Assembly: GCA_029637525.1 (NCBI GenBank)
Contig: CP072660.1
Location: forward strand, 372,001-436,000
Reading direction: 5' to 3'
Source of the DNA: Desulfurococcaceae archaeon MEX13E-LK6-19
GTDB taxonomy: Archaea > Thermoproteota > Thermoprotei_A > Sulfolobales > Desulfurococcaceae
DNA: 64,000 nt
Position numbers and translations under genes: made by a program
Shown here: positions 7,316 through 36,829 of the stretch, in pieces
Numbering within the stretch: the first letter of the stretch is position 1
Layout: every line of letters begins with the position of its first letter
The notes under the pieces: generated by a model
Seen by the model: the letters and a program-made list of their open reading frames with translations, nothing else
What the model was told of the DNA's origin: nothing
The model's database searches: none

Positions 7316-8332
7316 TTAGTATTGTAACAAGTCTCTTGGCATTTCAGGGCATATTGTCTTTGTTTTTAATATAAGCCAGTTGGCCTGAAGATACTTAGGA
7401 ACATAAGCCTCTATTACATGGGTTATTTTATGGAACCGTTCTTTACTTATTTCTATGGAGTCAGCCACGTATTTTTCATTCCTTAGTATATTAATGTTTG
7501 ATTCCATTCTCTTCGCTGAAATGAATTTTATCCTACCCTTAGCAGTGTATTCTGCTGAAATATAGAATGCCCCCATTACTAATGGTGTATAGTTGAAGCA
7601 AAGTACTAGTCTTTCACTAATCCTTGTTGCTATAGCTCTTTTTCTATCCCTCACGCTAACCCTAATGATCCCTGGTACTGGGGTTTTTGCCGATAAACTC
7701 AACTCTATATCTATAGGGATTTTCACCACAGCCATATTCAAAGGAGGGTTCTTCGAGATCTCGAGAACACTTATCTCGGGATCAAGTTTTTGTCCATTAA
7801 CTTGAAGATCAATCTTGTAATCATCCTCGGCATAGAAGAAAGTAGTATAAGTTATGCTGACGGGATCGCTAGTTAACCTCAAGATAACTCTTTCCTCATA
7901 ATAATCTAGGAAACCATCTGCATTAATTGTCCAATAAGTTCTCAAACTAGAGAGCCATGGTCTCCCAGCGTAATCAGCTAGAAGCTTTGCCAACATATTA
8001 ATTAGTTCTTCCTCAGAGACACCTTTGCTTAAATAAGGATTAACTTTTAGTAAACCATAATATAGTCCCGAAGGAACCCAATAGTCTTTATTCTCAAGTT
8101 TTACTCTTTTAACCATTCCAACAATCTCGAGATCTCTTAGAATACGCCAAAGAGTGGTCCTAGGCAGTCCAAGCTTTTCCTTTATTTCAGAAAGAGTTAA
8201 TGGTGTACCTTCATCTACGAGTAATGTATATACTTTGAAACTTAAGTCACTTCTATCACCACAGACTAGAGAACAAAATGCTCTAACAAAGTTTTTATCT
8301 ACACTCCTTTCCTTGTCAAGCGTTATATACAT
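7316..8332 (-). CDS. Winged-HTH transcriptional regulator divergent from the archaeosine cassette
   Basis: The protein has about 338 residues from ATG 8332, preceded by GGTGAT. An N-terminal winged helix-turn-helix follows: FKVYTLLVDEGTPLTLSEIKE, then recognition helix GLPRTTLWRILRDLEIVGMVKR. The large C-terminal region (about 250 residues, beta-rich) is unfamiliar and may sense a ligand. A longer frame reaches 8416 but would put a candidate operator inside the coding sequence, which argues for the shorter start. It is divergent from the preQ0-type transporter gene. A TATA-like GGTATATTT (8358-8366) lies just upstream, with a palindrome half between it and the start. The regulated genes are inferred. 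Confidence 0.75.
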   Translation of the reverse strand: MYITLDKERSVDKNFVRAFCSLVCGDRSDLSFKVYTLLVDEGTPLTLSEIKEKLGLPRTTLWRILRDLEIVGMVKRVKLENKDYWVPSGLYYGLLKVNPYLSKGVSEEELINMLAKLLADYAGRPWLSSLRTYWTINADGFLDYYEERVILRLTSDPVSITYTTFFYAEDDYKIDLQVNGQKLDPEISVLEISKNPPLNMAVVKIPIDIELSLSAKTPVPGIIRVSVRDRKRAIATRISERLVLCFNYTPLVMGAFYISAEYTAKGRIKFISAKRMESNINILRNEKYVADSIEISKERFHKITHVIEAYVPKYLQANWLILKTKTICPEMPRDLLQY

Positions 8333-8345
8333 GTAATCACCTGTA

Positions 8346-8356
8346 CCAATATGTTG
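8346..8356 (-). promoter_or_regulatory. Operator half-site, promoter-proximal to the HTH regulator
   Basis: The minus strand reads CAACATATTGG here, identical to the core of the palindrome at 8418-8435. It lies between the regulator's TATA-like element (8358-8366) and its ATG at 8332, so bound protein would block the transcription start. This fits autorepression. The function is inferred from position and repetition only. Confidence 0.5.
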
Positions 8357-8417
8357 AAATATACCAATAAAAATTATTTGCAGCTTCTTAGTAACCATTA
8401 AGAATCTACCATACAAT

Positions 8418-8478: not shown

Positions 8479-9195
8479 ATGACTATGGAGTACTTTGATA
8501 AGAAATATGCCGTCCTGCTAGGCATATTTATTGCAAGCCTGACTTCATCGAATTATTTGGCAGCAAAAATAGCTCTCTTAGGGAGCATTAATAATATAGA
8601 TCTATTTGTTCCTGCCGGTGTATTAGCTTATGCTGTAACATTTACAGTAACTGATGTAATAAGTGAGGTTTATGGCAAGAAGGCAGCATCTACGACAGTA
8701 TTCATAGGATTTATAACTCAATTTTTCATAATAGCATACTCACTCATTGCAGTACTTCTCCCTATAGCGCCGTTCCAAGAAGAATACAACACTATATTTA
8801 ACAGAATATTTGGTGTAGCACCAAATATTGTCGTAGCCAGTTTGATTGCATATTTGGTTAGCCAAAACCATGATGTATGGGCTTTCCACTGGTGGAAGGA
8901 GAAGACGCATGGAAGATATCTTTGGCTAAGAAATAATGCAAGCACAATTGTAAGCCAGTTTATCGACACACTGATATTCATTACACTCGCTTTCAATGTA
9001 CTCCCAACAATCACCGGAGGCATAGCAGTGCCCTGGTCTACAATACCCTTCATTATCTTGGGACAGTATTTAGTCAAGGTATCTATAGCTCTCTTCGATA
9101 CACCCTTCGTATACCTCGGCGTATACATTCTGAAAGGTAAGATCGTGTTTCCCAAGATTATATTAAAAACACCAATAGCGTTGAGGAGGGAGTAG
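8479..9195 (+). CDS. YhhQ/COG1738-type queuosine-precursor (preQ0) transporter
   Basis: This is a 238-residue membrane protein with about six hydrophobic segments. It carries the family signatures TDVISEVYGKKAA at about 59-71, and a FHWWKEKTHGRYLWLRNNAST stretch followed by SQFIDTLIFI at about 134-170. E. coli YhhQ imports preQ0 and preQ1. Archaea insert preQ0 at G15 of tRNA, so uptake here would feed archaeosine synthesis. The gene ends two bases before the RaSEA-like gene and heads the operon. ATG at 8485 is an alternative, possibly leaderless, start. The substrate is inferred from family and neighbours. Confidence 0.88.
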   Translation: MTMEYFDKKYAVLLGIFIASLTSSNYLAAKIALLGSINNIDLFVPAGVLAYAVTFTVTDVISEVYGKKAASTTVFIGFITQFFIIAYSLIAVLLPIAPFQEEYNTIFNRIFGVAPNIVVASLIAYLVSQNHDVWAFHWWKEKTHGRYLWLRNNASTIVSQFIDTLIFITLAFNVLPTITGGIAVPWSTIPFIILGQYLVKVSIALFDTPFVYLGVYILKGKIVFPKIILKTPIALRRE

Positions 9196-9197
9196 CG

Positions 9198-9941
9198 TTG
9201 CTAGGCGTGTTTACGGTGTCAGATAAGCTTGGGAAACGGCTCATAGTCATATTAAAGGGATTTCCTTGTTCATGGGGTAAATGCAGCTTCTGTCCATTCT
9301 CGTTGGAACAATCTACTAACATAAGAGAAGTTATTGAGACGAATAGACGTATCATAAATAAAGCGCTGGAGCTCATTAGGAAAGACCATTATGAGAGAGT
9401 AGCTGTTTTTAATGGCGGAAGCTTTCACGAGTTACCCTTTGATACCATTGAAAAACTGAGAGATCTAGCCATGAACAGAGTTTTCGAGATAGAAACCAGA
9501 AGCGAGTTTGTCACCCTAGACTCTTTGAAGAATATATTGAGCTTCTATAAACCCAAAAAACTCATTGTAAGATTAGGCTTCGAGGTATATGACGAAGAAA
9601 TCAGAGAAAAACTCTTGAAAAAAGGAATGCCCAATACAGAGCTTGAGAGAATAGTTAATCTACGAAACAAAGTCAAAGAACTTGGTCTTCCTATAGAGTT
9701 CTGGTGCTATGTTCTCTTCGGCATAGAATACATCCCTGAAGAAAAGGTTGTTGAAAGCGTTAATGTTTTCAGGAAAATGTTTGATGGCATCATAGCAATA
9801 AAGTATAAGAAATATCTCCCAAGTCACCCTAATGAAACACCTGTATCTCCACGTTTAGCTCAATTCCTCGAAAACAATGTTGATCTAGTTGACTGGGGTG
9901 GAGAACAATGGGAAATAAAAAAGGAAAAGAAGAAAAACTAG
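9198..9941 (+). CDS. Radical SAM enzyme, RaSEA-like (archaeosine synthase subunit)
   Basis: The product has 247 residues. The iron-sulfur site is CSWGKCSFC (Cx4CxxC) at about 24-32. Next come FNGGSFHELP and an ETRSEFVT strand, then RLGFEVYDEEIREKLLKKGM, which match RaSEA-family blocks (GSF, ESRPEF, GLES...R..INKGF). RaSEA works with ArcS: ArcS attaches lysine to preQ0-tRNA and RaSEA cleaves the adduct to leave the archaeosine formamidine. TTG start with GAGGAGGG at 9184-9191. It overlaps the ArcS gene by 34 bases, suggesting coupled translation. It is shorter than the euryarchaeal enzymes I know of. Function is assigned from motifs and context. Confidence 0.82.
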   Translation: MLGVFTVSDKLGKRLIVILKGFPCSWGKCSFCPFSLEQSTNIREVIETNRRIINKALELIRKDHYERVAVFNGGSFHELPFDTIEKLRDLAMNRVFEIETRSEFVTLDSLKNILSFYKPKKLIVRLGFEVYDEEIREKLLKKGMPNTELERIVNLRNKVKELGLPIEFWCYVLFGIEYIPEEKVVESVNVFRKMFDGIIAIKYKKYLPSHPNETPVSPRLAQFLENNVDLVDWGGEQWEIKKEKKKN

Positions 9942-10627
9942 AAGTAATATGGGATGGTAAAGAACTTGATTGGGTAAAACCTGATACCTGTAGAGAGTAC
10001 TTGAGAGGTGTTGGACTAAAGTATTTAGTTAATAAGTATTTCGAAGAAGGTTTCAAGAAGATCCTCACCAACTATAGGCCCAAGAAAAAGTATATTGTAG
10101 GATTAATTATTCCATGTAGCTATGGTAAACCCTATAGCCAGAGCTATATACATTACTTCATAAGGAAAGCCATTAAGGATTTCATACTCAAAGAATACGT
10201 ACACGAGATCATTGTCACTAATGCTGGTGTTGTTCCTCGTGAACTAGATGAATATTGGCCTTACTGCGCCTATGATTGGAACCCCAAGTATGAGACAAAC
10301 GAGATTAAGAAAATGTATACAAAAGTACTCGCCTCAAGACTAAAGACGTACATAGAAACTTTTAGAGAATACTATACACAATTCGCAGCATACCTCAGAT
10401 GGGATAGCGATAGCTGGAAAGCCGTAGAAATTGTTTCAAACGAGCTAGGAATAAAGATCCCTAACCTTGCTCCATCAACTATACCTGCAGAAGAACTAGA
10501 AGAAGTCCGCCTAGGAGGACTATACGACGACCCCGACTTAGTACTAATAACACATACATCATTATCAAAACTAAGAGAAAACCTAGCAAAACTAGTCGAC
10601 CTATCAAAGTCAAAGAAGAAAACATAG
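9908..10627 (+). CDS. arcS: Short ArcS (archaeosine synthase, lysine transferase core)
   Basis: The protein has 239 residues and contains IIPCSYGKPYSQSYIHY at about 68-84. This matches the PCSxxKPYxxSxSH hallmark of ArcS (DUF5591), which adds lysine to the nitrile of preQ0 at tRNA position 15. Typical euryarchaeal ArcS is over 500 residues and carries a TGT-like N-terminal domain and a C-terminal PUA domain. Both are absent here: only a short lead precedes the core, and the C-terminus ends in a basic helix. It overlaps RaSEA, and its stop codon touches the 3' end of the convergent tRNA-Arg. Target recognition may therefore rest on a partner. Confidence 0.85.
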   Translation: MGNKKGKEEKLEVIWDGKELDWVKPDTCREYLRGVGLKYLVNKYFEEGFKKILTNYRPKKKYIVGLIIPCSYGKPYSQSYIHYFIRKAIKDFILKEYVHEIIVTNAGVVPRELDEYWPYCAYDWNPKYETNEIKKMYTKVLASRLKTYIETFREYYTQFAAYLRWDSDSWKAVEIVSNELGIKIPNLAPSTIPAEELEEVRLGGLYDDPDLVLITHTSLSKLRENLAKLVDLSKSKKKT

Positions 10628-10702
10628 CGGGCCCGCCGGGATTTGAACCCGGGATCTCCGGCTCCGAAGGCCGGCGCCTTATCCAGGCTAGGCTACGGGC
10701 CC
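10628..10702 (-). tRNA. tRNA-Arg(TCG)
   Basis: The minus strand folds into a standard 75-nt tRNA. The acceptor is GGGCCCG/CGGGCCC with discriminator G. The anticodon stem CCGGC/GCCGG encloses loop CTTCGGA, giving anticodon TCG. The T arm is CCGGG-TTCAAAT-CCCGG. There is no intron and CCA is not encoded. Its 3' end directly abuts the arcS stop codon, so the two genes are convergent with zero spacing. Confidence 0.96.
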
Positions 10703-36710: not shown

Positions 36711-36800
36711 AGCCGGGTCGTCTAGCGGCCAAGGATGCGGGGCTTTGGCCTCGATAGAGGAAGAAACCCCGTGACCGGGGTTCGAATCCCCGCCCGGCTA
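36711..36800 (+). tRNA. tRNA-Gln(TTG) with 17-nt intron
   Basis: The acceptor is AGCCGGG/CCCGGCT with discriminator A. Anticodon stem CGGGG/CCCCG holds CTTTGG and A, with the intron at 36749-36765 after position 37. The T arm is CGGGG-TTCGAAT-CCCCG. CCA follows directly at 36801-36803. EndA should remove the intron. Confidence 0.94.
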
Positions 36801-36829
36801 CCATATTACCTCTTATATTATCATCATAC

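Follow-up and report, generated by a model that had tools for sequence, protein, structure and literature searches.

A three-gene archaeal cassette for probable preQ0 salvage and archaeosine completion by a free-standing ArcS core and a compact RaSEA/QueL-group radical SAM enzyme

The analyzed DNA, herein referred to as the window, is a stretch of 64,000 nucleotides (G000:C1:372001-436000) from a one-contig archaeal genome of 1,910,795 bases that is 99.99% complete. The order to which this genome belongs also includes Sulfolobus-like and Desulfurococcus-like families. Three genes on the forward strand form the cassette described here. The first gene (8479-9195) encodes a predicted transporter of 7-deazaguanine precursors of the YhhQ/QPTR type (COG1738, TIGR00697; 238 aa), assigned by its matches to Vut_1 and TIGR00697. 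The second gene (9198-9941, TTG start) encodes a compact radical SAM protein of the RaSEA/QueL group (247 aa), assigned by its match to TIGR01210, its structural match to 6p78, and its position in a phylogenetic tree. The third gene (9908-10627, ATG start) encodes a free-standing ArcS core (DUF5591; 239 aa), assigned by its matches to PF17884, NF040592, and the structure 2q07. The gap between the first two genes is 2 bases (9196-9197), and the last two genes overlap by 34 bases (9908-9941); the ORF coordinates thus bear out the initial annotation in its claim of three same-strand genes with this spacing and overlap. Shine-Dalgarno-like sequences can be read on the forward strand before both downstream starts, namely GAGGAGG (9183-9189) before the TTG of the radical SAM gene and GGTGGAG (9897-9903), located within the radical SAM gene, before the ATG of the ArcS-core gene.

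The cassette is flanked on both sides by genes on the reverse strand. A gene for tRNA-Arg(TCG) (10627-10702) is convergent with the cassette, and its end coincides with the final base of the stop codon of the ArcS-core gene. This tRNA has A14-G15 and, consequently, a potential archaeosine site. A gene for a TrmB-type HTH regulator (7316-8416) is divergent from the cassette at a distance of 62 bases and represents a candidate regulator. In another part of the window, a tRNA-like gene of 93 bases with no anticodon called was found by ARAGORN on the forward strand (36711-36803); it is perhaps an intron-containing or decayed tRNA. A search of the cassette for the preQ1 riboswitch or other RNA elements found only the tRNA above the gathering score.

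The YhhQ protein is encoded by a single-copy gene. It matches the Pfam family Vut_1 with 185.5 bits (E-value 9.7e-55) and the NCBIfam model TIGR00697 with 178 bits, above the curated cut-off of 50.95 (about 51), in agreement with the COG1738 identity proposed earlier. In Escherichia coli, YhhQ is required for preQ0 uptake (PMC5372724).

The initial annotation had stated that no gene for preQ0 synthesis or arcTGT was in view, and it had proposed searching the full genome for TgtA, queD, queE, and queC. The statement is true of the window. In the rest of the genome, one gene of the TGT family was found, encoding arcTGT (539 bits with the TgtA model; cut-off 350). The search for preQ0 synthesis revealed no QueC, no recognizable QueE, and a PTPS/QueD-like gene in a pterin setting. 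The QueC domain (PF06508) produced only a 62-column match of 21.4 bits in a 354-aa ORF, which was rejected as QueC because it is a zinc-finger PP-loop ATPase that looks TtuA/Ncs6-like. The QueF-like family (PF14489) had no match in the genome. For QueE, only matches of about 20 bits were found, all in radical SAM ORFs of 338-581 aa; since this is a bacterial profile whose sensitivity could not be demonstrated by an overly permissive control run, the absence of QueE is less certain than that of QueC. The PTPS/QueD-like gene is located between genes for a folE2-type GTP cyclohydrolase and an MptE-like protein (locus L090, G000:C1 about 1226623-1230000). Although its product has the QueD-like motif CxxxHGH, this gene was rejected as a sign of preQ0 synthesis in view of its pterin neighbors and the missing QueC. 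The complete genome also contains no further DUF5591 gene and no full-length ArcS, the ArcS core of the cassette being the sole DUF5591 gene. Since QueC is missing, the known route to preQ0 is closed, and the presence of YhhQ, arcTGT, and an ArcS core makes the genome read as that of a salvager. As a prediction from gene content, preQ0 salvage by the source archaeon is well supported.

The cluster site of the compact radical SAM protein, C24-x4-C29-x2-C32 (residues 24-32), is invariant in 48 relatives, which agrees with the Cx4CxxC site reported initially. The same type of site is found in QueL and is therefore not diagnostic for RaSEA. With the RaSEA model TIGR01210, the protein scored 53.4 bits, under the equivalog cut-off of 212. 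The same model gave 64 bits for the QueL fragment in 6p78, 39 to 66 bits for relatives, 82 to 133 bits for fused forms, and 169 bits for the protein from locus L144, described below. In the predicted structure (pLDDT 94.5), the closest solved structure is the queuine lyase 6p78, matched by Foldseek over the whole length (E-value 6.4e-13) and aligned with a Z-score of 24.3 over 219 residues at 25% identity; the next entry has a Z-score of 15.4. In a tree of 45 radical SAM sequences, a single clade (100/99) unites the split proteins, i.e., those encoded separately from the ArcS core; it stands beside QueL and a Fusobacterium homolog (100/98), and the fused forms group with the L144 protein and a Streptomyces homolog (100/98). 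Additionally, a short GSF-ELP segment is common to the split proteins and QueL, the RaSEA-type sequences having GSFFDDxQFP at this place. A single clade of all archaeal split and fused forms was not rejected by the AU test with the full set (p = 0.058) and was rejected after removal of one long row (p = 0.016 and 0.003).

On these sequence comparisons, queuine-lyase ancestry of the compact radical SAM protein is likely. It is not settled, because the trees have few outgroup rows (plasmid matches from Streptomyces and Fusobacterium), long branches, and no characterized RaSEA, and are sensitive to rooting. The genomic partnership with ArcS, a trait of RaSEA, is seen for the compact protein in its co-occurrence with short ArcS in 25 of 26 genomes, in the gene overlap, and in fusions elsewhere. 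Thus, the earlier designation "RaSEA-like" holds for the group and for the ArcS partnership and fails for RaSEA itself, given the TIGR01210 score and the position of QueL as the nearest relative in fold and in the fullest tree. By sequence, the fitting name is compact RaSEA/QueL-group radical SAM enzyme, not RaSEA proper.

The ArcS-core protein contains the DUF5591 domain (PF17884, 59.2 bits; cut-off 26). With the ArcS model NF040592 it scored 57.4 bits over profile positions 283-390, under the equivalog cut-off of 440. No TGT-like domain was matched by Pfam models, and the protein is without a TGT-like or PUA domain. Residues 69-82 read PCSYGKPYSQSYIH, which fits the pattern PC-x3-KPY-x2-S-x2-H that we take to be the ArcS motif. 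C70, K74, P75, Y76, S79, P110, D123, W124, E129, Y137, and R144 are invariant in 56 relatives, and H82 is kept in at least 90% of them. The motif named in the initial annotation is therefore present, C70, KPY, and S79 being invariant. It is not diagnostic alone, because DUF5591 paralogs of other crenarchaea also carry PC-x3-KPY-x2-S, and the motif by itself was rejected as proof of function. These DUF5591-like paralogs of 188-287 aa, found in Sulfolobaceae and other crenarchaea (L166:1809-2375; L163:11725-12525, reverse strand; L167:1799-2662), keep most or all of the motif, also in genomes with GAT-QueC, yet they are separated, with moderate support (87/88), from the group formed by the split and fused proteins. 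The predicted structure of the ArcS core (pLDDT 94.6) has one convincing match, AF0587 (2q07), with a Z-score of 15.2 over 139 residues and 27% identity. Matches to DNA glycosylases and cutinases, with Z-scores of 7.1 or less, were dropped as too weak.

In total, short ArcS was found in 26 of the 197 analyzed genomes of the order, belonging to many families. The compact radical SAM protein was found in 25 of these 26 genomes versus 3 of the 171 others, and its gene is usually adjacent to or overlapping that of short ArcS. In two of the three genomes with the radical SAM gene only (G005 and G140), this gene ends at a contig edge. YhhQ was found in 20 of the 26 genomes with short ArcS versus 32 of the 171 others. 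The 33 genomes with an ArcS core, either short or fused, include 22 with YhhQ only, 7 with QueC only, 1 with both, and 3 with neither; this complementarity of YhhQ and QueC is significant by a Fisher test that ignores relatedness (p = 2e-4). QueF-like proteins above the cut-off were found in none of the ArcS-core genomes, which is not a significant difference (p = 0.22). Among the genomes without the cassette, 70 have neither YhhQ nor QueC. In four members of the order without an ArcS core (G086, locus L165 on C83; G156; G164; and G176), the YhhQ gene is the immediate neighbor of a QueC-like gene; outside the ArcS group, therefore, YhhQ and QueC do not always replace each other. The pair of radical SAM and ArcS-core genes together with QueC and without YhhQ was found in G018, G100, and G111, which places the pair downstream of preQ0 whatever the source of the latter. 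Two genomes of the Nitrososphaeria type (G200 and G204) have an adjacent pair and a strong QueC.

A scan of GTDB genomes revealed 71 loci related to the cassette. Relatives of short ArcS with 47-73% identity were found in Desulfurococcales, Acidilobaceae, Pyrodictiaceae, and Nitrososphaeria MAGs. In almost all of these loci the radical SAM gene is adjacent to or overlaps the short ArcS gene, in either order, and YhhQ is located near a dozen of them, mostly just upstream. At more distant loci, in Aenigmatarchaeota, Micrarchaeota, Nanoarchaeota, Culexarchaeia, and Thermodiscus-like and presumably Ignicoccus-like genomes, a single ORF of about 430-500 aa encodes both domains, with the RaSEA-type domain ahead of the ArcS core. 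At ten loci (L127, L130, L133, L143, L145, L153-L155, L157, and L160), of which L153-L155 are near-copies and count once, arcTGT is found within a few kb of the fused ORF and is mostly directly divergent from it. The arcTGTs at eight of these loci, from DPANN and unclassified archaea (L127, L130, L133, L143, L145, L153, L157, and L160), are without the C1-like stretch of the arcTGT of the source genome; they read mostly AIGGIVPLME, and the latter reads HALGSPTVLLE. The euryarchaeal MAG locus L144 (3975-6600) contains YhhQ, a RaSEA-type protein of 364 aa, and an ArcS core of 219 aa in a row, which is the gene order of the cassette with a near-canonical RaSEA-type protein. No archaeal relatives of the pair were found in viral contigs, phages, or plasmids. 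We infer the function of the pair from these fusions and gene neighbors, and not from the short motif.

The cassette probably serves for salvage of preQ0 and finishing of archaeosine, with the short ArcS core acting together with a QueL-type lyase. In the proposed pathway, YhhQ would import preQ0, and the arcTGT of the genome would place it in tRNA at position 15. Lysine would then be joined to the nitrile by the short ArcS core, probably acting in a complex with the radical SAM protein, to form preQ0-lysine, and the compact radical SAM enzyme, doing the job of euryarchaeal RaSEA, would cleave the lysine C-N bond to yield the formamidine of archaeosine. The substrates, the lysine chemistry, the complex, and the order of steps are modeled on Thermococcus kodakarensis, where ArcS must be in a complex with RaSEA to transfer lysine to preQ0-tRNA, after which RaSEA yields archaeosine (PMC11298593). 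In that system, ArcS with RaSEA accepts the preQ0 nucleotide and not the preQ0 base (PMC11298593), which suggests that an extended tRNA-binding apparatus is not essential. The reaction of QueL is likewise the cleavage of a C-N bond in the side chain of a 7-deazaguanine, and thus QueL ancestry would be compatible with the proposed lyase role.

The initial claim of preQ0 uptake followed by archaeosine formation with a minimal enzyme pair therefore stands with regard to salvage and the archaeosine role, supported by the absence of QueC, a recognizable QueE, QueF-like, and full-length ArcS from the genome, the single arcTGT, the complementarity of YhhQ and QueC, and the fusions beside arcTGT; "RaSEA-like" is corrected to QueL-type. 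The best matches of the two enzymes are not to unrelated families, nor does the genome combine a full set for preQ0 synthesis with a separate full-length ArcS. Several observations count against this reading, including the ArcS-core motif in paralogs of GAT-QueC genomes, the failure of the radical SAM protein with the RaSEA model and its greater nearness to queuine lyase, and the size of the 239-aa ArcS. Further such observations are G092, with both YhhQ and QueC, and three genomes with neither, G088 (78% complete), G103 (88%), and G055 (56%).

Some members of QPTR transport queuine (PMC11130926), and the cassette could accordingly be read as a route in which YhhQ imports bacterial queuine, a true queuine lyase makes preQ1 from it, and the ArcS core has another role. 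The nearness of the radical SAM protein to 6p78 in fold and sequence and its clade with QueL in the full tree would fit this explanation. It is nevertheless quite improbable: the radical SAM gene is tied to the ArcS core, including in the QueC-containing genomes without YhhQ, whose possession of the pair speaks against queuine salvage, and G200 and G204 likewise have a strong QueC in addition to the adjacent pair. The genome has no QueF-like enzyme, and preQ1, to our knowledge, is not on a path to archaeosine.

The lack of TGT-like and PUA domains in short ArcS raises another scenario, in which the pair turns free preQ0 into the archaeosine base and a broad-specificity crenarchaeal arcTGT inserts this base into tRNA. 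The difference between HALGSPTVLLE and AIGGIVPLME in the arcTGTs would agree with this, and active-site differences in crenarchaeal arcTGTs of organisms without ArcS might admit the formamidine (PMC5485725). However, the preQ0 base is not acted on in T. kodakarensis, as mentioned above, and QueF-like, first thought possibly to use the free base, acts on preQ0-tRNA (PMC5485725), which leaves this scenario unlikely. Finally, as further DUF5591 paralogs exist and the compact pair is known from genes alone, the pair might modify a target other than preQ0 in tRNA, e.g., a free deazapurine metabolite, with YhhQ as a bystander. The fusion beside arcTGT in several archaea and the complementarity of YhhQ and QueC argue against such a target, making it very improbable.

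Most Crenarchaeota are reported to be without ArcS and to finish archaeosine by QueF-like or GAT-QueC. In a literature search covering papers outside subscription, no description of a compact ArcS and radical SAM cassette was found. With regard to salvage of preQ0 and finishing of archaeosine, the cassette suggests that a considerable number of Thermoproteota and Nitrososphaeria, scattered over these groups, have a compact ArcS and radical SAM route, and that its counterpart in DPANN, Culexarchaeia, and others is fused into one gene. It may tentatively be regarded as a further kind of archaeosine synthase, composed of a free-standing ArcS core and a radical SAM lyase descended from queuine lyase, in which case the role of RaSEA would have been filled twice within the superfamily and preQ0 would come from neighboring organisms. 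The route offers a testable answer to the question of how archaeosine arises in archaea that lack the known finishing enzymes, the source here being a hyperthermophile-type archaeon. It further isolates the likely catalytic core of ArcS as a small protein suited to structural work, connects RaSEA to queuine lyase, both being candidates for C-N lyases that act on 7-deazaguanines, and leads to the prediction of preQ0 auxotrophy in some archaea, which would be cross-fed a precursor of tRNA modification.

The cassette can be compared with several known systems. Its YhhQ is a full-length match above the curated cut-off to the known QPTR/YhhQ (COG1738) transporters of preQ0 and preQ1; it differs from them in being located in one archaeal operon with genes for archaeosine finishing, and its specificity is predicted. 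AF0587 of Archaeoglobus fulgidus shares the DUF5591 domain with the ArcS core, but it has 306 aa and the aligned part covers only about half of the short ArcS length. The queuine lyase QueL of Clostridium spiroforme (PDB 6p78) shares the compact radical SAM fold, the GSF-ELP segment, and a place in 7-deazaguanine metabolism with the cassette protein; unlike the latter, it is bacterial and makes preQ1 from queuine. We know of no ArcS-core partner of QueL. In Crenarchaeota without ArcS, the same last step is carried out by the archaeosine synthases QueF-like and GAT-QueC, which are unrelated to the proteins of the cassette pair; neither QueF-like nor a true QueC domain is present in the genome. 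The euryarchaeal ArcS (alpha) and RaSEA (beta), e.g., of T. kodakarensis, have in common with the cassette the DUF5591 core with PC-x3-KPY-x2-S-x2-H, a radical SAM partner of the same group, and, presumably, the lysine-adduct chemistry. In contrast to the 575 positions of the full-length ArcS model, the cassette ArcS has 239 aa and neither the TGT-like nor the PUA domain; its partner, at 247 aa, is far below the RaSEA cut-off; and the pair is accompanied by a transporter, not by genes for preQ0 synthesis.
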